Positions 11,823 to 20,279 of a stretch of 64,000 nt of DNA are shown piece by piece. Numbering within the stretch: position 1 is the first letter of the stretch; every line of letters starts with the position of its first letter. The position numbers and the translations under genes are program-made. Under the pieces are notes generated by a model. That model ran no database searches. It had not been told where the DNA came from and saw only the letters and a list, made by a program, of their open reading frames with translations. Source of the DNA: Flavobacterium geliluteum (lineage in GTDB: Bacteria; Bacteroidota; Bacteroidia; Flavobacteriales; Flavobacteriaceae); NCBI RefSeq assembly GCF_017948595.1, contig NZ_JAGFBV010000014.1:1-64000 (forward strand), in the 5' to 3' direction.

Positions 11823-11883
11823 TTGTGTGCACGAGCCAGAGGCATCGCGCCAGCACCTGTGTTACCTAATGCTCGGACTAGCT
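11823..11883. repeat. 61-bp interspersed repeat, copy 1
   Basis: Nearly identical to 14043-14103 (I count three differences). Both begin TTGTGTGCACGAGCCAGAGG and end in GGACTAGC. On the minus strand each copy lies directly after the 3' end of a cassette-like unit (this one after the PD40 lipoprotein unit). CAGCACC (11851-11857) and GGTGCTG (11884-11890) make it fold as a stem. Confidence 0.85.
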
Positions 11884-11889
11884 GGTGCT

Positions 11890-12842
11890 GTTGGCGGTAG
11901 TTATATTTTATGTGAAATCATTATTGAGGTCTTAACTGTTCAATGATTTTAGCGTCAACCCAATAATCTTTAGTCTCCCAATATGTACTTCCATCCTCCT
12001 TTACTTTTTCTTCTGACCTTTTAAAAAGCAAATATTTTCCGTCAGGTGTTAACCTCGCACCATTTTCTACTAATTCTGAATTTATCTTATCTCCCATATT
12101 AATAGCTGAACCCCATGAACCATCTTGCTGTCGAAAACTGATATAATTGTCAGACTTACCATATCCATCTTCTCGCTCGCTATCCCATATTAAGTAGGAT
12201 TCATCAGGTGCTATAAAGGGGTGGGCGACCAATTTCCCTGAGTTAATCTCCTTGCCGAGTAGTTTTGGTTCTTCACGTTTACCGTCTTTAATCCTTGATA
12301 TACGGATTCCGTTATCGGTTTTATAATCATCAAAAACAATAGTCCCATTAGCGGATATTGACAACACCATAATGCCCAAATCTTTGCTGTCAAACATTGG
12401 ACCAAGGCTTTTTAGCTTTGACCAACCAGAAGCTGTACGTTCAATATAGTTATGCCTTGAGTATAAGATGTTGCTATTTTCAGTACCACTGGCGTGAAAA
12501 GTATATTTACTGGTTTTATAATAATTTTCTTCTTGCCGATAAACAACAACGGCAGGCTGAAAAGGGTCATTACCTGAGTAAGTAAAGTAAAACTCTTTCA
12601 TATCAAAAGAGTCCTTGTTTCCTAGTTTCCAATCTTCAGAAGTACTCTTTTTAGGAACAAAAACTTCAGGATTTAATCCTGGTGGCTTATACCCAAAGTA
12701 TAGATTTTCCGCTATCGAAGAATTATTCTTTTTTGTTTCTGGTTTCTTAGCATTGCAAGCATTTGACAATATTACAAATGCCAGTGCTAAAAGTTTAATC
12801 ATGTTTTTTTTCATTGTTCAATTAGCTTTAATTACCGCCAAC
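11890..12842 (-). mobile_element. Candidate gene-cassette unit (PD40 lipoprotein)
   Basis: The unit is bounded by GTTGGCGGTA (plus strand 11890-11899) and its exact inverse TACCGCCAAC (12833-12842). The single gene inside is on the minus strand, so the unit reads 5'-GTTGGCGG...gene...CCGCCAAC-3' in the coding direction. Confidence 0.55.
11921..12814 (-). CDS. PD40 / TolB-like beta-propeller lipoprotein
   Basis: 297 residues. Lipoprotein-type signal (VILSNAC20). The mature part has WD40-like PD40 blades: GTIVFDDYK, then AHPFIAPDESYLIWDSERE and GARLTPDGKYLLFKRSEE. These are the P-D-(G/E)-x-Y-L-x-F/W pattern of TolB and OmpA-associated propellers. It probably sits in the envelope. No partner is encoded nearby. 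It occupies a cassette-like unit with inverted GTTGGCGGTA ends and no neighbouring operon genes. Function of free-standing PD40 lipoproteins is unknown. Confidence 0.78.
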   Translation of the reverse strand: MKKNMIKLLALAFVILSNACNAKKPETKKNNSSIAENLYFGYKPPGLNPEVFVPKKSTSEDWKLGNKDSFDMKEFYFTYSGNDPFQPAVVVYRQEENYYKTSKYTFHASGTENSNILYSRHNYIERTASGWSKLKSLGPMFDSKDLGIMVLSISANGTIVFDDYKTDNGIRISRIKDGKREEPKLLGKEINSGKLVAHPFIAPDESYLIWDSEREDGYGKSDNYISFRQQDGSWGSAINMGDKINSELVENGARLTPDGKYLLFKRSEEKVKEDGSTYWETKDYWVDAKIIEQLRPQ

Positions 12843-12930
12843 GTTTCGCCACTTCACGAAGTTGCCAATGAAAGTGGGCGGAGTTCTCTCTGCCAAGATA
12901 ATCTTTCTTCGTGAAACCAAACGTCCAGCT
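12833..12930. repeat. attC-like palindrome P1 (degenerate at one end)
   Basis: Starts TACCGCCAACGTTT and folds back on the arm ending CCAAACGT. CTTCACGAAG (12852-12861) pairs with CTTCGTGAAA (12907-12916). The expected GTTGGC-type box at the far end is missing; the sequence runs into GTCCAGC and then a MITE-like element at 12947. Confidence 0.5.
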
Positions 12931-12946
12931 ACAAAAAAAACTTTAT

Positions 12947-13097
12947 GCTGTGCGAAGTCTCCTGACTTCGTACCCGCATCGTATATCCGTTTTGTATTTC
13001 TCGTTTAAATAAATTTTAAATCGTATTGAAGTAAAATACTAGCCAAGTAGCAATTTGCTTATTGGAATGGGTACGAAGTCGGGAGACTTCGCACAGC
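12947..13097. mobile_element. 151-bp MITE-like element with 29-bp terminal inverted repeats
   Basis: The 29-bp arms 12947-12975 and 13069-13097 are inverse complements with one mismatch. They begin GCTGTGCGAAGTC and end GACTTCGCACAGC. Each arm is itself a small hairpin (CGAAGTC-4 nt-GACTTCG). The 93-bp core has no gene. The right arm plus flank (13071-13131) is repeated at 13983-14043. No clear target-site duplication. Confidence 0.65.
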
Positions 13098-13138
13098 AAT
13101 CATAATATTTAAGAAGAACACTTCGCAGAGCTGGTTCC

Positions 13139-13432
13139 TTACAGTCTGCTTTTTAAATCCATCACTCCATGAAGAATTCTTGCGATTTCTATTTCGTTCT
13201 TTGATATAATTGAGTAGAAGATAATATGTTCACCTGATTTAAAACCTAATATTCCTTTCATAACTATATCATATTTTCTACCAAGTTCTGGATTATTTGC
13301 TAGATCATGACATGATGACATAAGTAAATCATAATACTTTTCAGCTTGCATTTCAGACCAAGTTTCGATTGTATAATCCCAAATTTCAGTTAAGTCATCA
13401 ACAGCTTTATTTGTTAAATAATATTTAGCCAT
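13139..13432 (-). CDS. parE: ParE/RelE-family toxin
   Basis: 97 residues with the ParE fold pattern: YLTNKAVDDLTEIWDYTIETW at the N-terminus, then CHDLANNPELGRKYD and SGEHIIFYSI, ending with a basic RILHGVMDLKSRL. Family members poison gyrase (ParE) or cleave mRNA (RelE); the ParD-type partner makes ParE more likely. It overlaps the antitoxin gene by 8 bases, so the two are translationally coupled. The RILHG.MD tail is intact and nothing suggests decay. Confidence 0.88.
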   Translation of the reverse strand: MAKYYLTNKAVDDLTEIWDYTIETWSEMQAEKYYDLLMSSCHDLANNPELGRKYDIVMKGILGFKSGEHIIFYSIISKNEIEIARILHGVMDLKSRL

Positions 13433-13676
13433 TTGATTTTTTTCTTGCTTTTAAAACGTTAAGATGTTTTTTAGCATCAAAATCTACTGCACGTCCACTT
13501 TCAATTCCATCATTAATCGCTTTTCTTAAAGCTACAATTTTATTTTCTTCATCTTCTAAAAGACGAAGACCGGCTCTTACAACTTCACTTGCATTATTGA
13601 ATCTTCCATTATTTACACTGTGTTCGATAAAACTTTCGAAATGATTGCCAAGCGATATAGAAGTATTTCGTCCCAT
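13425..13676 (-). CDS. parD: ParD-family antitoxin
   Basis: 83 residues. An N-terminal ribbon-helix-helix (NTSISLGNHFESFIEHSVNNGRF) is followed by NASEVVRAGLRLLEDEE, the CopG/ParD signature, and a charged C-terminal tail that would wrap the toxin. It lies upstream of and overlaps the toxin gene. A perfect 9-bp inverted repeat lies 14 bases before its start codon and is a likely autoregulatory operator. Confidence 0.9.
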   Translation of the reverse strand: MGRNTSISLGNHFESFIEHSVNNGRFNNASEVVRAGLRLLEDEENKIVALRKAINDGIESGRAVDFDAKKHLNVLKARKKSNG

Positions 13677-13712: not shown

Positions 13713-13766
13713 TTCAAATTATTCTGTATTTTTTTGGAATCTCACATAACTTGTATATACTCGCTA

Positions 13767-13774
13767 CAAAGTTA
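13767..13774 (-). promoter_or_regulatory. -7 element for parDE
   Basis: TAACTTTG on the minus strand matches TAnnTTTG, about 90 bases before parD. Confidence 0.45.
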
Positions 13775-13775
13775 C

Positions 13776-13975
13776 GCATATCAACCCTTATTGAGGTGTA
13801 TACACGAAGTTCAGTCTCGTTTTATAGTATGTTTCCGTTTTGAGAATAAAGCATCACAGCTGCCTCATTCATCCTAAAAACAAATATAACAATTCTGGCA
13901 TCATCACCTTTATAGGAAACCGTAATTGGAGATTATTGATTTTGATACAAGTATACCATTAATTAAAAACTGTGG
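13776..13975. repeat. ~200-bp interspersed repeat, copy 1
   Basis: Diverged direct copy of 17919-18140. Shared blocks include GGTGTATA, TTTTATAGTATGTTTC, CTAAAAACAAATATAACAAT and GGTATACCATTAA-like ends. Both copies lie just upstream of a minus-strand gene. On the minus strand both keep a short frame with DDARIVIFVFR, possibly a gene remnant. Confidence 0.7.
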
Positions 13976-13982
13976 AGCAAGC

Positions 13983-14043
13983 TACGAAGTCGGGAGACTT
14001 CCCACAACAAACACGATATTTAAGAAGAATACTTCGTAGAGTT
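13983..14043. repeat. REP-like repeat, second copy of the MITE right half
   Basis: Contains ACGAAGTCGGGAGACTTC (hairpin) and ATATTTAAGAAGAA, as at 13071-13131. It is directly followed by the 61-bp repeat at 14043. Confidence 0.65.
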
Positions 14044-14103
14044 TGTGTGCACGAGCCAGAGGCATCGCGCCAGCGCCTGTGTTACCTAATGCTAGGACTA
14101 GCG
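14043..14103. repeat. 61-bp interspersed repeat, copy 2
   Basis: Near-identical to 11823-11883. On the minus strand it follows the 3' end (GCAGTTAAC) of the unit carrying the 162-residue protein gene. Confidence 0.85.
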
Positions 14104-14118
14104 GGGGGAGAAACAGCT

Positions 14119-14646
14119 GTTAACTGCTGGCTTTTATTTTTTCTATTATTTCTTTCTCAATTGTGTTTATTCTGTCTTTTGGATAAAATAGATTTACACT
14201 TGGATGAAGCTTTATATTTTCAATTTGTATTTTTATCATTTCCAACAAATTTTTTTCTTTAGGTTTTCCTTTAAAAATAAATTCAAAATCATCAAGTAGA
14301 TCAAAGGCAACATTAGTTTCAATTGTAGCAAAAATATATGCAAATAAATGACTTCTTTGGGGTAAATTTATTTCAAGACTTTCTTGATAATACCAACTTT
14401 CATTATCGCATAACGCATTAGCTAGTATTTCTATTTCGTTAGAATTCCATTCTGCAATTTCATTTTTTAATAATTCCCAGGAATTATCAGTGAATTTCAA
14501 AAGCATAGATAAAATTTCAAGATTTCCATGCCCAGAAGACCAAAAGTCAGAATCATAATCCTTATACTTTTGAATGTAATTATATAGTTCAGATTTTCGT
14601 TTAAACATTCGGTTTTAGTTTTCGTTCTGGGAAGCTTGCAGTTAAC
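14119..14646 (-). mobile_element. Candidate gene-cassette unit (162-residue protein)
   Basis: Bounded by GTTAACTGC (14119-14127) and its exact inverse GCAGTTAAC (14638-14646). With two extra matching bases each side the arms agree at 11 of 13 positions. The gene's stop codon lies inside the 3' arm, so gene and unit end together. Confidence 0.6.
14120..14608 (-). CDS. Hypothetical protein of cassette unit
   Basis: 162 residues, acidic and alpha-helical looking, no signal peptide or membrane segment. Motifs include SSGHGNLEILSMLLKF and NAFDLLDDFEFIFKG-like acidic stretches. I do not recognise a family. The composition (small, acidic, helical, single-gene cassette) resembles immunity-type or orphan cassette proteins, but that is only a resemblance. 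Its TAA stop overlaps the unit's GTTAAC end sequence. Confidence 0.68.
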   Translation of the reverse strand: MFKRKSELYNYIQKYKDYDSDFWSSGHGNLEILSMLLKFTDNSWELLKNEIAEWNSNEIEILANALCDNESWYYQESLEINLPQRSHLFAYIFATIETNVAFDLLDDFEFIFKGKPKEKNLLEMIKIQIENIKLHPSVNLFYPKDRINTIEKEIIEKIKASS

Positions 14647-14776
14647 CGTTCCCTTGCTACAAGAGGTTTGGGATTAAATTAAGCCTTATCTTCGGATTTG
14701 CCTAAACTTCCCTAATACAAGACCGTTTTCAAATTAATCCAAATGCCCAAATCTCTTGTAACAAGTGTTGGCGGTT
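14638..14776. repeat. attC-like imperfect palindrome P4
   Basis: Joins the unit at 14119-14646 to the unit at 14767-15312. The inner arms 14654-14672 and 14746-14764 are complementary at 17 of 19 positions around a ~70-nt loop. The outer ends differ (GCAGTTAAC on one side, GTTGGCGGTT on the other), each matching the far end of its own unit. Confidence 0.65.
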
Positions 14777-15312
14777 CGGTTGTTTTCAGTCGAACTTATG
14801 ATTGAAATTTTACTTGTTTTTCATATAATGCGAAATTAGTGCAGTTTGTTTTGTTGGTTATTTTTTTAAAAATTACGCATTACTAAAAAAAACAAATTAT
14901 AAAATAAAATATATAGATAAAGACGTTTTCTTTCTCTTTTAAACATATAAATACTCAACAAAATAAAGATGATATTGAAAATAGAAAAGACATTGTTAGT
15001 TATATAACTTACGTAAAGCACCTTTTCTATTCTGAAGTTTATGTTGTAATATAATTGCAAAAAAGAATTTATTATCGGAAAAACTAATCCCACATAAAGA
15101 ATCCATCTAATAAATTTTATCATAATTATAGTTTTATTTATTCTTATTAATCGACTAAAATTAACTAAAGCGAAATTTTATTCAATCAATTTAGTAAATA
15201 AAATTCAATTTTCGCTTTTCTGTTTTTCACGATTATATTTTCTGTTTTTCTGTGCAACTAAAACCTTCTTTTAAAGTCTTTTGCGTAAGTTCGGTTTCAA
15301 CTGACCGCCAAC
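14767..15312 (-). mobile_element. Candidate gene-cassette unit (small membrane protein)
   Basis: Bounded by GTTGGCGGT (14767-14775) and ACCGCCAAC (15304-15312), exact inverse sequences. One small gene lies inside; about 180 bases upstream of it are non-coding and AT-rich, probably the promoter. Confidence 0.55.
14866..15123 (-). CDS. Small membrane protein of cassette unit
   Basis: 85 residues with two or three hydrophobic helices (about 5-25, 38-58, 68-83) and a short basic RERKRLY loop. No family recognised. Single gene in its unit. Confidence 0.55.
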   Translation of the reverse strand: MIKFIRWILYVGLVFPIINSFLQLYYNINFRIEKVLYVSYITNNVFSIFNIIFILLSIYMFKRERKRLYLYILFYNLFFLVMRNF

Positions 15313-15441
15313 GTTTGGTCGCTTGGCGATGTGGTGGACTAAGGAAGCCTAATCTTTCGGTTAATGACTAATTTTCCAAGTACAAAACCATCTTTAAATT
15401 AAGCCAAATCCCGCCATATTGCCAAACGACGGTTGGCGGTA
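15304..15441. repeat. attC-like imperfect palindrome P5
   Basis: Starts ACCGCCAACG and ends GGTTGGCGGTA. GTTTGG after the left AAC pairs with CCAAAC at 15422-15427. The next arm segment (GATGTGGTGG) pairs with CCGCCATATT through G-T pairs. A block with no partner (TCGCTTGGC) would bulge out. Confidence 0.65.
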
Positions 15442-16969
15442 GTACTAATTGTTGAAATAGAAATCGGCAGTTAATGATGTTGATTCCCAGGGAATTTGTT
15501 CTTCTCTCGATTTCTGCATAACTTCAAGTCTTACTTTTTGAAACATTGTATTGACTGGTGTGGATTTACCATTAATATGATTTAGAAGCGCTTCTGTATA
15601 CAACCCATTATTTCCACTGCCGTCTGATGCAGTTTGACCCGGAGCTGTTGAATAAGCAATTAAAGAACCTTTTGGAGCATTCATCGTTGCTAACCCCCTT
15701 TGTCCAATTCCTCGTCCCCAAGCTCTTTCAAAAGGATTATTTCTACATGCATCTAATACGATAAGATTAACAGAAGTTCTTGCATCTTCCATATGAGCTA
15801 AAACCCTTCCTGCTTCAACACAATCGTACTCAACTAATTTTTCAGAAGTTAAATTAGCATCAATTGGAATTAAGTAATTTAATCCTTGTACTTGAACTCC
15901 ATGTCCCGCGAAATAGAACAATCCAACATCACTACCTTTTAAAACATCACCAAATTCATCAATGACAATTTTTAATTCTTTTTGTGTCGGATCAATTTTT
16001 TTTATTACTTCAAATCCCAATTGTTGCAGAATTTTTTCCATTTCGTTTGCATCATTCAAAGGATTTACTAATACTCCTGAATGTTGATATGTACTGCAAC
16101 CAATAACAAGTGCCTTTTTGATTTCTGGTTTAGATGTGGTAGTAGTTTTAGTTACTTCTGTAGCAATATCAAATTCGAATGCTTTAAAAGTTGGAAAACC
16201 AGCAATTTCTTCAGATTTTTCTAAACCAAAACCATCTCTTTTTAGATTGTTTGTGTATATTTCTAATAAAGTAGTTATTTCTTCACTTTCTTTTCTTACT
16301 GTAGGATGAATTGTCAAGCATAAAAAATCTAAAAAATCTTTATCAGTAGAGTGTAAAATATAAAATCGTTCATCAGTAAAAATCCATTCATCACTCCAAT
16401 CATTGTTTAAAAAAGTGTGTTTATGGATGTCTTCAAGTGCAGTTGTATATCTTGGGTCTAAGGAAGGAAGTAATGAAAGGTCATAAAGTCGTCCAAGAAA
16501 TGATGTTTGTTCAAGATTTCCAAACCAAGGAATTCGTGTAATTAAAAAGCTATCAAGAATATTTCTGCGTGTTGATAATTTTATCTTGTTATCCAATGTA
16601 ATTCTTTTTCGTGGATGCTCTGTAACTTCTGGTTTAGAAATTATTCTGTACATTTCATCGAATTTAAAATCAGTATCTTTTATAACGTATTGGTCACTTT
16701 TTTGTAAATAGTTGGTGACTGCTATATATCTATCTGTTGTGTCAATATATTTTTTATTACCGTTGGTAATGTCAATTTGATAAACATCAACAATATCTGG
16801 GTGAGATAGTATCTCGTAATTTTCTTCTAAATGGTTCGCTAAAATATTCTCTTTCCAATATTGATAGCTACCACTTGATTCTTTATTAACATGCTTTTGT
16901 TTTATTTTCATTTTTTAATTCGGTCTAATTTAATGTCAATTTATGCGATTACGAGGTATTACCGCCAAC
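15432..16969 (-). mobile_element. Candidate gene-cassette unit (AbiJ-NTD-like/caspase gene)
   Basis: Bounded by GTTGGCGGTA (15432-15441) and TACCGCCAAC (16960-16969). The inverse match extends to 13 of 14 bases (GTTGGCGGTAGTAC versus GTTGGCGGTAATAC). The gene fills the unit, with 58 bases upstream and 3 bases between the arm and the stop codon. Confidence 0.6.
15445..16911 (-). CDS. AbiJ-NTD-like / caspase-family (C14) fusion protein, predicted defence effector
   Basis: 488 residues in two parts. Residues about 264-480 are a caspase-like peptidase: KALVIGCSTY strand, catalytic His337 in FYFAGHGVQ and catalytic Cys389 in VLDACRNNPF, with GSLIAYSTAPG and a C-terminal IPWESTSL typical of bacterial C14 domains. 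Residues about 130-235 (TSFLGRLYDLSLLPSLDPRY, DIHKHTFLNNDWSDEWIF, CLTIHPTVR) resemble the AbiJ N-terminal domain 3 found in front of abortive-infection effectors. The first 130 residues are unassigned. I infer a phage-triggered protease that kills or arrests the cell. It is a single-gene unit between attC-like palindromes, with no obvious partner. Protein substrate unknown. Confidence 0.85.
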   Translation of the reverse strand: MKIKQKHVNKESSGSYQYWKENILANHLEENYEILSHPDIVDVYQIDITNGNKKYIDTTDRYIAVTNYLQKSDQYVIKDTDFKFDEMYRIISKPEVTEHPRKRITLDNKIKLSTRRNILDSFLITRIPWFGNLEQTSFLGRLYDLSLLPSLDPRYTTALEDIHKHTFLNNDWSDEWIFTDERFYILHSTDKDFLDFLCLTIHPTVRKESEEITTLLEIYTNNLKRDGFGLEKSEEIAGFPTFKAFEFDIATEVTKTTTTSKPEIKKALVIGCSTYQHSGVLVNPLNDANEMEKILQQLGFEVIKKIDPTQKELKIVIDEFGDVLKGSDVGLFYFAGHGVQVQGLNYLIPIDANLTSEKLVEYDCVEAGRVLAHMEDARTSVNLIVLDACRNNPFERAWGRGIGQRGLATMNAPKGSLIAYSTAPGQTASDGSGNNGLYTEALLNHINGKSTPVNTMFQKVRLEVMQKSREEQIPWESTSLTADFYFNN

Positions 16970-17096
16970 GGTTTGCTGCCAGACGCAGTCGCGGCTTGGC
17001 GACCGAGTTTTCTCCACTAGCACAAAACGAAGTTAAGAAAAAGAAACGAACAATTTACCGAAAACCAGCGATTGCGTTTGACAGCGGTTACCTGAC
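16960..17096. repeat. attC-like imperfect palindrome P6
   Basis: Joins the caspase unit (TACCGCCAAC end) to the SHIIPKF unit (GTTACCTGAC end). The inner arm GCTGCCAGACGCAGTCGC (from 16975) pairs with the segment just before 17087 at 15 of 18 positions; two of the three exceptions would be G-T pairs. The outer ends do not match each other, only their own units. Confidence 0.65.
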
Positions 17097-17889
17097 GTTT
17101 TTATAGTTTAACATATTTTCAACCACCAAATTATTCAATTTTTTCCAGCTCTCATCATTTCCAATAAAAATTCTGAACGTTTCATTTCTTGAGTTTCCAT
17201 AAGTTTTATGTGCGAGTAAGCAGTCATCTTCATTTGTGTAAAAAAATAGCGCATAGTCAACCGTATAAATTGCATATGAATTTTGGCTAAAATTATATGC
17301 ACTAAATATTCCTCGGGTTTTATTTTTTGGTTTTACTAAACACAAGTAATAATTTGGCACGCTTTCAATTTTTTTAGAATGTTCCAATAAATCGCTATGA
17401 AGTTCTTTTAAATTATTATTGAGAAAAATTCTAATTTCTTCTTCGATAGCTTCATTGAACTTGAATGTATCAAATAGTATGTTTTTCGAAACTGAACTTC
17501 TCCAAATTAAAGAGTAGAAAAATAAATAAAATAAAGATGGATTAATTTCCTCACAATGTAATATTTCTTGATTTTCGATTATTTCTAACTTGTACTTTCT
17601 CTTTGCATTTTGTAATGAATTTACCTCCACGAAAACTCGTGCGAAATAGGTTTCTAATTTTTCTAAGCGTTTTTCACACCAACTACATAAAATATGATCC
17701 TCTTTTGGAATATCCTGGAGTTTAGTTTGAATTCCGTCTTTTGATATTTGAACACTATGTCTTGGATTTGTATTTTCAAAAAGTCGCTTACACATAAACT
17801 TTGGAATTATGTGTGAGTTTAGTTTATCAGCAATTCTTTCTTTGCAAAGTTTACAATTCTCCATCGAGTTTTCTAAAATGTCAGGTAAC
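17087..17889 (-). mobile_element. Candidate gene-cassette unit (CxxC/SHIIPKF gene)
   Basis: Bounded by GTTACCTGAC (17087-17096) and its exact inverse GTCAGGTAAC (17880-17889). The stop codon lies in the 3' arm. The 5' arm lies between two in-frame ATGs, so only the downstream ATG (17864) is inside the unit. Confidence 0.6.
17088..17864 (-). CDS. CxxC / SHIIPKF protein, HNH-like zinc fold of unknown function
   Basis: 258 residues from the ATG at 17864. An in-frame ATG at 17906 would add 14 residues but lies outside the cassette boundary, so I reject it. MENCKLCKERI (Cys4, Cys7) is followed by NSHIIPKFMCKRLF and, at Cys60-Cys63, ILCSWCEKRLEKLETYF. The paired CxxC motifs around an SHIIPKF motif recur in many bacterial proteins of unknown function and suggest a treble-clef/HNH-like zinc site. 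No membrane segment. The remaining 180 residues are mixed helix and strand with no catalytic motif I know. A nucleic-acid role is inference only. Confidence 0.75.
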   Translation of the reverse strand: MENCKLCKERIADKLNSHIIPKFMCKRLFENTNPRHSVQISKDGIQTKLQDIPKEDHILCSWCEKRLEKLETYFARVFVEVNSLQNAKRKYKLEIIENQEILHCEEINPSLFYLFFYSLIWRSSVSKNILFDTFKFNEAIEEEIRIFLNNNLKELHSDLLEHSKKIESVPNYYLCLVKPKNKTRGIFSAYNFSQNSYAIYTVDYALFFYTNEDDCLLAHKTYGNSRNETFRIFIGNDESWKKLNNLVVENMLNYKNVR

Positions 17890-17918
17890 TTGTTTATACC
17901 AGCCATAAAATGGCTCCA

Positions 17919-18140
<222 letters not shown>

Positions 18141-18186
18141 TGTTTATACGTGTTTTGAGGGTGTGTTTCGGTTTTGTACTGAAGTA

Positions 18187-18432
18187 TTTAGGTCTACAAC
18201 CTAAAATTTGGGGTTGCGAACCCCTCTGATGAGGTTCGGAACCCCTCGGTTGGGGTGCTGAGGTGCTCGGTTGGGGTTCGGAACCCCAAATTTGACGTTC
18301 GGAACGTCAAATTTGACCCACAAGGACGTCAAATTTGACGTCGGGAACCCCATTTTTGACGTCTGGAACCCCATCGATGGGGTTCGATACCCCAAATTTG
18401 ACATTGAGGACGTCATCGATGGAGCTTAGAAC
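18187..18432. repeat. Dense palindrome cluster
   Basis: About 245 bp built from three palindromic words in varying order: GGGGTTC/GAACCCC, GACGTC and CAAATTTG. Perfect examples are TTGGGGTTCGGAACCCCAA (18271-18289), a 14-bp-arm palindrome with one central base at 18287-18315 and GACGTCAAATTTGACGTC (18325-18342). GC content is clearly above its surroundings. A 71-codon open frame through it is repeat-derived and not a gene. Confidence 0.8.
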
Positions 18433-18836
18433 CCCAAACGAGCTGTTTTTTGAACCTTTATTTGACAATGTTTAACAAACAGTCTAAAGTTGCCCTCGCG
18501 GCTGGCGAAAGAAATTTTATTGACTGTCAGATTTCTGGAGATTTTTAAGTGGGTTAGCTGTCTTTATACGCATACGATTTGTATGGATGTAGGTGCGAGT
18601 GTTGGTGTTCCAGAATAAATTGCTGGTGCGACGCGATGCCCTAGCCCTGATAGAAGCGGCATCCTTTTTTGGCAAACGAAAATAGCTAAATAGAACCGTA
18701 AACAATCTGCCTAAAAAGATAGAGCGGATAGCAGGATTCAGCTCCTGAAAAAGAATCTGATACTCCCGAAAGTGCTGTTGAAATGGAGGCTAAAAAACTC
18801 AAAAGCGGAATGATAGAATTTTCAACAAAAATTTCG
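18433..18836. other. Gene-free region before prfA
   Basis: No convincing gene. It contains a mosaic hairpin repeat (18641-18752) and the prfA promoter at its right end. Short open frames here cross the repeats and have no codon-like composition. Confidence 0.6.
18641..18752 (-). repeat. Mosaic hairpin repeat, copy A
   Basis: On the minus strand: CTTTTTCAGGAGCT, ATCCTGCTATCCGCT, a variable middle, then GGATGCCGCTTCTATCAGGG and CTAG. The two conserved ends also occur at 37240-37302 and 52686-52771, each with a different hairpin in the middle. Confidence 0.8.
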
Positions 18837-19945: not shown

Positions 19946-19954
19946 AAGAAGCTA

Positions 19955-20250
19955 CTAAGTTACTAAGGTTCTGAGTTACTAAGGTGTTTTTGAGGTTCAA
20001 AGGTGCAGAGTTGCAAAGGCTCAGAGGTTTTTAATATATATAAAAAAGGACTGTTTTACTTAATTGTGAAGGCAGTCTTTTTTTTTTGAGGTTCTGAGTG
20101 ACTAAGGTTCTAAGTGGCTAAGTTTTATTTTTGCATAAATTAAAAAGGCTCTGAGCCTTTGCAACCTTGTCCCTTTGTTCCTTTGCACCTTTGTACCTCA
20201 GAACCTTAGCTACTCAGAACCTTAGCTACTCAGAACCTCAGAAGCTTAAA
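19955..20250. repeat. Large inverted low-complexity repeat
   Basis: The left arm (about 19955-20030) is built from CTAAGTTACTAAGGTTCTGAG and AAAGGTGCAGAGTTGCAAAGG type words. The right arm (about 20144-20248) carries their complements (GCACCTTTGTACCTCAGAAC, CTTAGCTACTCAGAACC twice). Related tracts are at 8785-8815 and 31790-31880. It would form a long imperfect hairpin between prfA and the DUF5723 gene. Confidence 0.7.
20045..20091 (+). terminator. prfA terminator
   Basis: AAAGGACTG pairs with CAGTCTTT (one bulged G), followed by a run of ten T. Confidence 0.7.
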
Positions 20251-20279
20251 AAAAAGAAAGAACCTTCTGAGGTTTTTTA
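20236..20279 (+). terminator. Second terminator-like hairpin
   Basis: CCTCAGAAG (20236-20244) pairs perfectly with CTTCTGAGG (20264-20272), then six T. It uses the last word of the large inverted repeat as its stem. Confidence 0.55.

Follow-up and report, generated by a model that had tools for sequence, protein, structure and literature searches.

The window, the whole stretch of 64,000 nucleotides analysed here (positions 1 to 64,000 of contig NZ_JAGFBV010000014.1, C19, of the Flavobacterium geliluteum assembly GCF_017948595.1), carries on its minus strand two cassette arrays, each with an attI-like site and a promoter-like motif of its own, and a cluster of G+C-rich palindromes located between these accessory genes and the core gene prfA (Table 1). 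The initial annotation had placed the cluster exactly between the island and prfA; the position stands, but a Flavo-1 RNA (RF01705, 65 bits; 18639-18742, plus strand), upstream of prfA, intervenes. Further Flavo-1 copies were found beside the platform on contig C47 (L022:2422-2522) and just upstream of the recombinase gene on contig C48 (L120:1112-1190, 42.5 bits). The prfA protein of the window has 100% identical counterparts in named Flavobacterium records, consistent with the genus. The prfA 3' region (19946-20260) holds a different intergenic repeat, in which many words of the CTAAGTTACTAAGGTTCTGAG type stand in direct orientation on one side and in inverted orientation on the other.

Table 1. 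Features of the two platforms and their cassette arrays, in window coordinates
Feature	Position	Strand	Basis
Outer flank CAAACGAGCTGTTTTTTG..., common to other platform copies	18433-18469	no strand	alignment; BLAST to L021, L022
21-bp-period palindromic array	18198-18432	no strand	repeat analysis, nucleotide search of genome
Platform 5' segment between palindromic array and cassettes, ~310 bp	17886-18197	−	comparison of genome copies
AAAT tetranucleotide run, 30 nt, upstream of promoter-like motif	18072-18101	no strand	
Promoter-like TATATTTG, reading into cassettes	18020-18027	−	
51-nt attI-like core, with insertion junction G|TT at 17889/17888	17886-17936	−	
Cassette 1 with its attC; ends GTTACCTGACA / CGTCAGGTAAC	16969-17888	−	
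Cassette 1 ORF, 272 aa; start inside att core (MAGINKL) or at 17866	17088-17906	−	
attC-like site 1 (AAC..GTT, 123 nt)	16967-17089	−	attC model match
Cassette 2 ORF, Caspase domain and AbiJ_NTD3	15445-16911	−	domain search
attC-like site 2 (125 nt)	15310-15434	−	attC model match
Cassette 3 ORF, 85 aa; no Pfam or PADLOC match	14866-15123	−	
attC-like site 3 (126 nt)	14644-14769	−	attC model match
Cassette 4 ORF, ending in R''-like GCAGTTAAC	14120-14608	−	
Terminal segment of cassette array 1 (95% identity with 11823-11885)	14043-14105	−	
Second platform, no palindromic array; TATATTTG 13881-13888, att core 13747-13797	13747-13960	−	
ParD/ParE-like pair directly behind second platform	13139-13676	−	
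Rest of cassette array 2	11823-12940	−	partial attC 12838-12940; R''-like end; terminal segment 11823-11885
Cassette array 2 ORF, weak PD40 match	11921-12814	−	

Within 18187-18432, 10 inverted repeats with arms of at least 7 nt and loops of at most 4 nt were counted, against a mean of 0.14 in 500 dinucleotide shuffles (maximum 5), the longest perfect one having 14-nt arms (18287-18300/18302-18315) and a spacer of 1 nt. The palindrome words and overlapping perfect palindromes with arms of up to 14 bp described in the initial annotation were present, and its remark that the composition is unlike the surroundings also held, with a G+C fraction of 0.508 against 0.342 for the window (51% vs 34%), a value reached by only 0.06% of 246-bp stretches. 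The palindromes form a tandem array with a 21-bp unit (spacings of 21, 22, 21, 21, 21 and 21 for family D2), each unit consisting of a G+C palindrome of about 15 bp and an A+T palindrome of 6 bp, and the words change (GGGGTTC, GACGTC, TTTAGGT) while the 21-bp phase and the palindromic units persist. Folding of the array gave z-scores of −7.2 and −6.8 against shuffles for the two strands. Rfam searches (E ≤ 1) returned no meaningful match for the array or the att core, a CRISPR-DR31 match in the array being below gathering.

A genome-wide search had been suggested in the initial annotation; nucleotide search of the F. geliluteum genome returned 68 pieces matching the array, at about 20 places, one of which (C48:15993) is a 28-nt match only. 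Among 30 relatives searched in the same way, matches were obtained in 3 of 18 congeners and in none of 12 genomes from other genera. The region upstream of prfA, whose comparison had been suggested alongside, was scanned at lag 21 in 80 other prfA loci, several with only 0.1-0.5 kb upstream; no such array was found ahead of prfA, the sole match (L057, 0.63) lying downstream and being unlike the window array. Similarity to the window starts at 18637-18641 in 8 of these 80 loci, and nearer prfA in most others.

All-against-all comparison of the genome copies showed that the array makes up just the outer half of a longer repeat, and a larger platform (17886-18469) was delimited, comprising the array, TATATTTG as a promoter-like motif, and a conserved attI-like site of 51 nt. 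The inner half (17869-18194) is 92% identical to the copy on C59 and 78-82% identical to those on C68, C47 and C25. In full platform copies the conserved part stops beside a gene start, and the gene differs from copy to copy; most copies, read in gene direction, reach GGTATAAACAAGTTA or similar and then diverge, and one (C25:300547) is truncated before that end. On sequence grounds, the cluster of palindromes forms the upstream edge of an integron-like gene-cassette platform, and the earlier suggestion of an island boundary was right as to position, the cluster being the outer edge of the cassette island.

For the att core, segment matches were obtained in 38 of 150 genomes, many covering only the last ~50 nt before the junction, a part that is conserved independently throughout Flavobacterium, and a gapless alignment of 51 columns was built from 24 cores, omitting L022 (repeated core) and the weaker L139, L142, L146 and L153. 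The arms of the att hairpin covary, with 27 two-sided changes compared with 11.6 in shuffled alignments (0 of 500 as high) and at most 10 in slid controls. The resulting model found nine sites in the F. geliluteum genome, one of them weak (29 bits, C25:299621), and sites in 59 of 121 Flavobacterium genomes, which carry as many as 10 each; in a sample drawn from the whole order, 12 of 196 genomes were positive, 11 of them Flavobacterium (F. geliluteum included). Three att sites were also seen in a genome from another genus of the same order (G562; C14, C17 and C33), raising the question of platform transfer beyond Flavobacterium. Some att cores contain ATGGCTGGTATAAACAAG|TT, so that different cassette ORFs have a start codon and MAGINKL in their reading frame (window 17886-17906, minus strand; C68; C59).

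The promoter-like motif, which we take to be a Bacteroidetes −7 type element (TAnnTTTG), was found in its exact form upstream of the att core at 29 of 56 sites (7 of them F. geliluteum copies), compared with 0 of 56 in a control stretch, and in the form TAnnTTTG at 41 of 56 sites, compared with 7 of 56. TATATTTG starts 35-45 nt upstream of the core in 22 sites of other genomes and 88-91 nt upstream in the 7 F. geliluteum sites; none was present upstream of the recombinase-linked F. geliluteum att site. The AAAT run beside the motif measures 30 nt in the window vs only 5-14 nt in 7 other platform stretches, and phase-variable spacing is possible.

A 21-bp array lies upstream of six of the nine F. 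geliluteum att sites. At the weak C25:299621 locus, array and promoter segment are present, but a gene precedes the att match, and no array was found at the recombinase-linked att site on C48 or at the second att site of the window. Since 14 of the 20 array places (one being the 28-nt match) are away from full-strength att sites and 2 of the 9 att sites lack one, a platform does not require the array. Among 48 att sites of other genomes, one has a clear array upstream (L150, genome G150) and one a degenerate array (L152, G090), the remaining 46 having no similar array in the upstream stretch examined (up to 1.5 kb).

Cassette array 1 comprises four cassettes and three well-formed attC-like sites (lengths in Table 1); behind the ORF of cassette 4, no well-formed attC was found. 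The protein of cassette 1 gave sub-threshold Pfam matches only, the two small ORFs of this array gave no domain match above cut-offs, and the Caspase-AbiJ_NTD3 protein of cassette 2 is a probable defence protein. No intact attC chain was found in cassette array 2, the first attC of which appears disrupted around an inverted repeat (12946-13098), where an attC is expected. This repeat has 30-bp arms (97%; 12946-12975/13069-13098), is MITE- or terminator-like, and has relatives near prfA at four other loci (L057, L060, L064 and L079).

A scan for attC on stem score alone reached a best score of 23.5, compared with 19-25.5 in five plain shuffles, and because this was no better than shuffles, complementarity of each cassette's own end word was adopted. 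Comparing the first 11 nt of the first cassette with the best downstream complement, at 53 att sites followed by 1 kb or more of sequence, gave matches with at most one mismatch at 17 sites and at most two at 30, compared with 1.3% and 12.7% of trials, respectively, for words swapped from other att sites; own-word matches were missing within one mismatch at 36 of the 53 sites and within two at 23, many sites having only ~1.5 kb downstream. The attC-like sites between cassettes are about 112-128 nt long, 31 of 46 candidates fell within the length and stem limits, and 30 of these 31 were aligned (L242:9352-9469 omitted). In their arms, 90.8% of 600 cells were paired, a level favoured by the complementarity and stem rule used to choose the sites, compared with at most 41% when the arms were slid out of register; more telling is the variety of paired types, with 161 two-sided changes compared with 50.9 in shuffled alignments (0 of 500 as high). 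A sequence-only attC model matched at 34 places in the F. geliluteum genome and in 89 of 101 Flavobacterium genomes, several of the per-genome counts being lower bounds. In judgeable first cassettes, the longest ORF ran in the expected direction in 20 and in the opposite direction in 9. A 50-nt attC-like site in genome G121 (stem 24.6), near-identical at L239 (about 2140) and L156 (about 2630), is unlike the ~125-nt class.

A tyrosine recombinase gene (C48:17661-18701) ends 57 bp before an att site that has the same orientation. In 56 of 121 Flavobacterium genomes relatives were found (E ≤ 1e-60, 40-78% identity), in single copy in 54 of the 56. Thirty recombinase loci were fetched, of which three were not judgeable (L197, contig end; L212 and L222, tail not recognised), and a core-like att site lies 52-59 nt behind the last codon in 23 of the other 27, C48 included, taking as core-like a positive score above those of 30 shuffles each; 14 of the 23 score at least 30, and 4 also trained the att matrix. 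Behind the recombinases at L207, L209, L214 and L215, no att-like site was found. Distances tabulated for 14 genomes from the matches listed are 53-60 nt, two of these recombinases being flagged with stops (G090 and a G123 copy). With strict filters and by hand count, 33 Flavobacterium genomes have att sites and recombinase, 26 att sites only and 23 recombinase only, some of the last group having a divergent att site (e.g., L199, L201 and L219).

The recombinase consists of Phage_integrase and SAM-like domains and an N-terminal extension of ~70 aa with no Pfam match. Four recombinases were scored, giving 200-208 bits against the integron-integrase model TIGR02249 (cut-off 265) and 212-222 against NF040815 (cut-off 220), a XerA-type model titled 'tyrosine recombinase/integron integrase', which two of the four pass. 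The best solved relatives are XerA structures (5hxy, 169 bits; 4a8e, 166.6), followed by IntI4 (2a3v, 148) and XerD (1a0p, 121). Aligned with 2a3v, 60 residues of IntI4 stand opposite 18 in the recombinase, and the KGxKDR and HxLRH boxes are 65 aa apart in 10 of 10 recombinases, compared with 106 aa in 6 of 6 IntI proteins, in a comparison in which two F. geliluteum Xer rows did not fit the box pattern. The gap falls where integron integrases carry their I2 domain, and the IntI-specific I2 region is absent from the Flavobacterium recombinase. A tree of 10 of the 27 recombinase rows, 6 of 12 IntI loci and 2 F. geliluteum Xer rows separates the Flavobacterium recombinases from IntI (93/96 and 100/99), the long Xer branches preventing it from telling which group is nearer Xer. 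An earlier tree, with two IntI rows, very long Xer branches and scattered Flavobacterium rows, was set aside.

Canonical IntI above cut-off was found in 0 of 121 Flavobacterium genomes (controls silent), compared with 84 of 296 genomes sampled across the phylum, which shows that the search works; an integron-integrase search of the F. geliluteum genome gave no match on C19. Two of 12 canonical-IntI genomes of the phylum (G256 and G440) also have sites that fit the attC model, so an exchange of cassettes is conceivable. These weak matches, together with an attC anatomy that is that of integrons, would fit cassettes laid down by a canonical IntI that was lost or acts elsewhere, the neighbouring XerA-like recombinase being incidental; the distribution of IntI and the fixed distance between recombinase and att-like site in 23 of 27 loci argue against this, and we consider it improbable.

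Judged from sequence, Flavobacterium very probably has an integron-like cassette system with a non-IntI recombinase and many separate platforms. In the proposed mechanism, the single-copy recombinase, encoded before one att site, would cut att and folded attC sites and would insert circular cassettes, in cis or in trans, at any of the nine att platforms (one weak), and the platform promoter would express the first cassettes. On balance, though by a narrow judgement, we favour an independently evolved (or pre-IntI) integron, in which a XerA-like recombinase that lacks I2 and has its own N-terminal domain would act on single-strand attC hairpins and on many trans promoter-att platforms scattered across the chromosome, providing several expressed first-cassette positions at once, not one.

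The array is probably a minisatellite of the platform edge. Our tentative reading goes further: the 21-bp palindromic minisatellite would be slippage-prone and travel with the platform, and would most likely limit read-through; since both strands form strong hairpins, we propose, with low confidence, that it shields the platform from outside transcription. Somewhat less likely, the array may be a selfish repeat of the REP/MITE type that gene conversion or an unseen transposase has spread, and that is linked to the platform by co-duplication only. Its occurrence at about 20 places, 7 of which have more than the array in common with another copy, and in 3 of 18 congeners is as such a repeat would predict, but the non-platform arrays compared have no common ends, and the unit sets vary per array, which local slippage fits better than copying.

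A binding platform is rather unlikely, on which a dimeric regulator, nucleoid protein or recombinase would control expression or join platforms; 21 bp being two helical turns, a dimeric protein could sit on one DNA face upstream of the platform promoter. The 21-bp phase and palindromic units conserved despite the change of words, and the arrays of this type upstream of att in G150 and, degenerate, in G090, speak for it; against it, the variation of words between arrays leaves no fixed recognition sequence, 46 of 48 att sites in other genomes have no similar array, and the 14 places remote from full-strength att sites are intergenic and, by eye, follow no common gene orientation.

The array itself is not a recombination site. 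The initial annotation had proposed a recombination hotspot, and a cluster that received the island could be imagined from its position at the island edge and from possible cruciform extrusion, but gene content switches at G|TT (17889/17888), at a distance of 309 bp, the intervening segment is conserved from copy to copy, and the C48 att site, with no array, still has a chained cassette; this origin is very improbable, and the array was likewise rejected as the gene-content junction, from which the conserved platform segment separates it. A decayed heptad-repeat protein (the repeat toxin of the initial annotation, or another coding peptide) is scarcely credible, since the 71-aa minus-strand frame with its 7-residue repeat (18201-18416), open in the C59 copy too, is broken by same-frame stops in 3 of 4 homologous copies, as conserved coding sequence would not be, and has no Pfam match at E ≤ 0.1; a 21-bp period by itself keeps a frame open.

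In the parts of the sources drawn on here, integron integrases are described as having a specific domain for single-stranded attC sites that is missing in XerCD (PMC4792948, PMC9668308), and the IntegronFinder 2.0 survey lists one complete Bacteroidetes integron, in Salinibacter ruber, and others in Chlorobi and Ignavibacteriae (PMC9024848), the string 'Flavobacter' being absent from the main text of that paper as accessed. Integrons or intI have been reported in Bacteroidota, with Flavobacterium not named in the passages concerned (PMC8618304, PMC2426708). Among the matches listed in the integron literature, judged by title and start of abstract and with subscription papers and preprints outside the scope, no recognisable account of Flavobacterium chromosomal integrons or cassette arrays was found, and the search on repeats found no paper on such a palindromic array. 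If the proposed system is real, the need for I2 becomes directly testable in an attC-rich genus served by an I2-less recombinase, the case bears on whether cassette systems arose more than once, and a large unread cassette pool is added in Flavobacterium.

Compared with known systems, the array family resembles REP/BIME elements, which are dispersed intergenic G+C-rich palindromes in tandem, but differs in its 21-bp tandem period, in words that vary between arrays and in belonging, here, to a platform. The recombinase has XerA structures as its closest solved relatives, and differs from XerA, XerC and XerD in its tie to a conserved att site and cassette arrays and in its extra N-terminal domain. 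The window arrays resemble CALINs (at least two attC and no integrase in cis) in that cassette array 1 has three attC-like sites and no recombinase match lies adjacent; unlike CALINs, each comes with its own promoter-like motif and attI-like site, and the genome encodes elsewhere (C48) a non-IntI recombinase that has the same att site. The likeness to sedentary chromosomal integrons extends to the attC anatomy (R''-L''...L'-R', with paired R and L boxes and AAC..GTT ends), to self-complementary cassette ends with a G|TT boundary and an R'' complementary to the R' of the same cassette, to an attI-like site adjoining a tyrosine recombinase gene with a promoter-like motif in front, and to a mixture of accessory genes, among them ParDE and a probable defence gene. 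The system is not classed as a canonical integron, because its recombinase lacks the one protein feature by which integron integrases are defined, the additional I2 domain of IntI; it differs further in the ~70-aa N-terminal extension, in a recombinase that reads in the same direction as the cassettes, and in up to 10 att matches per genome, many with no recombinase within the 1.5 kb read.
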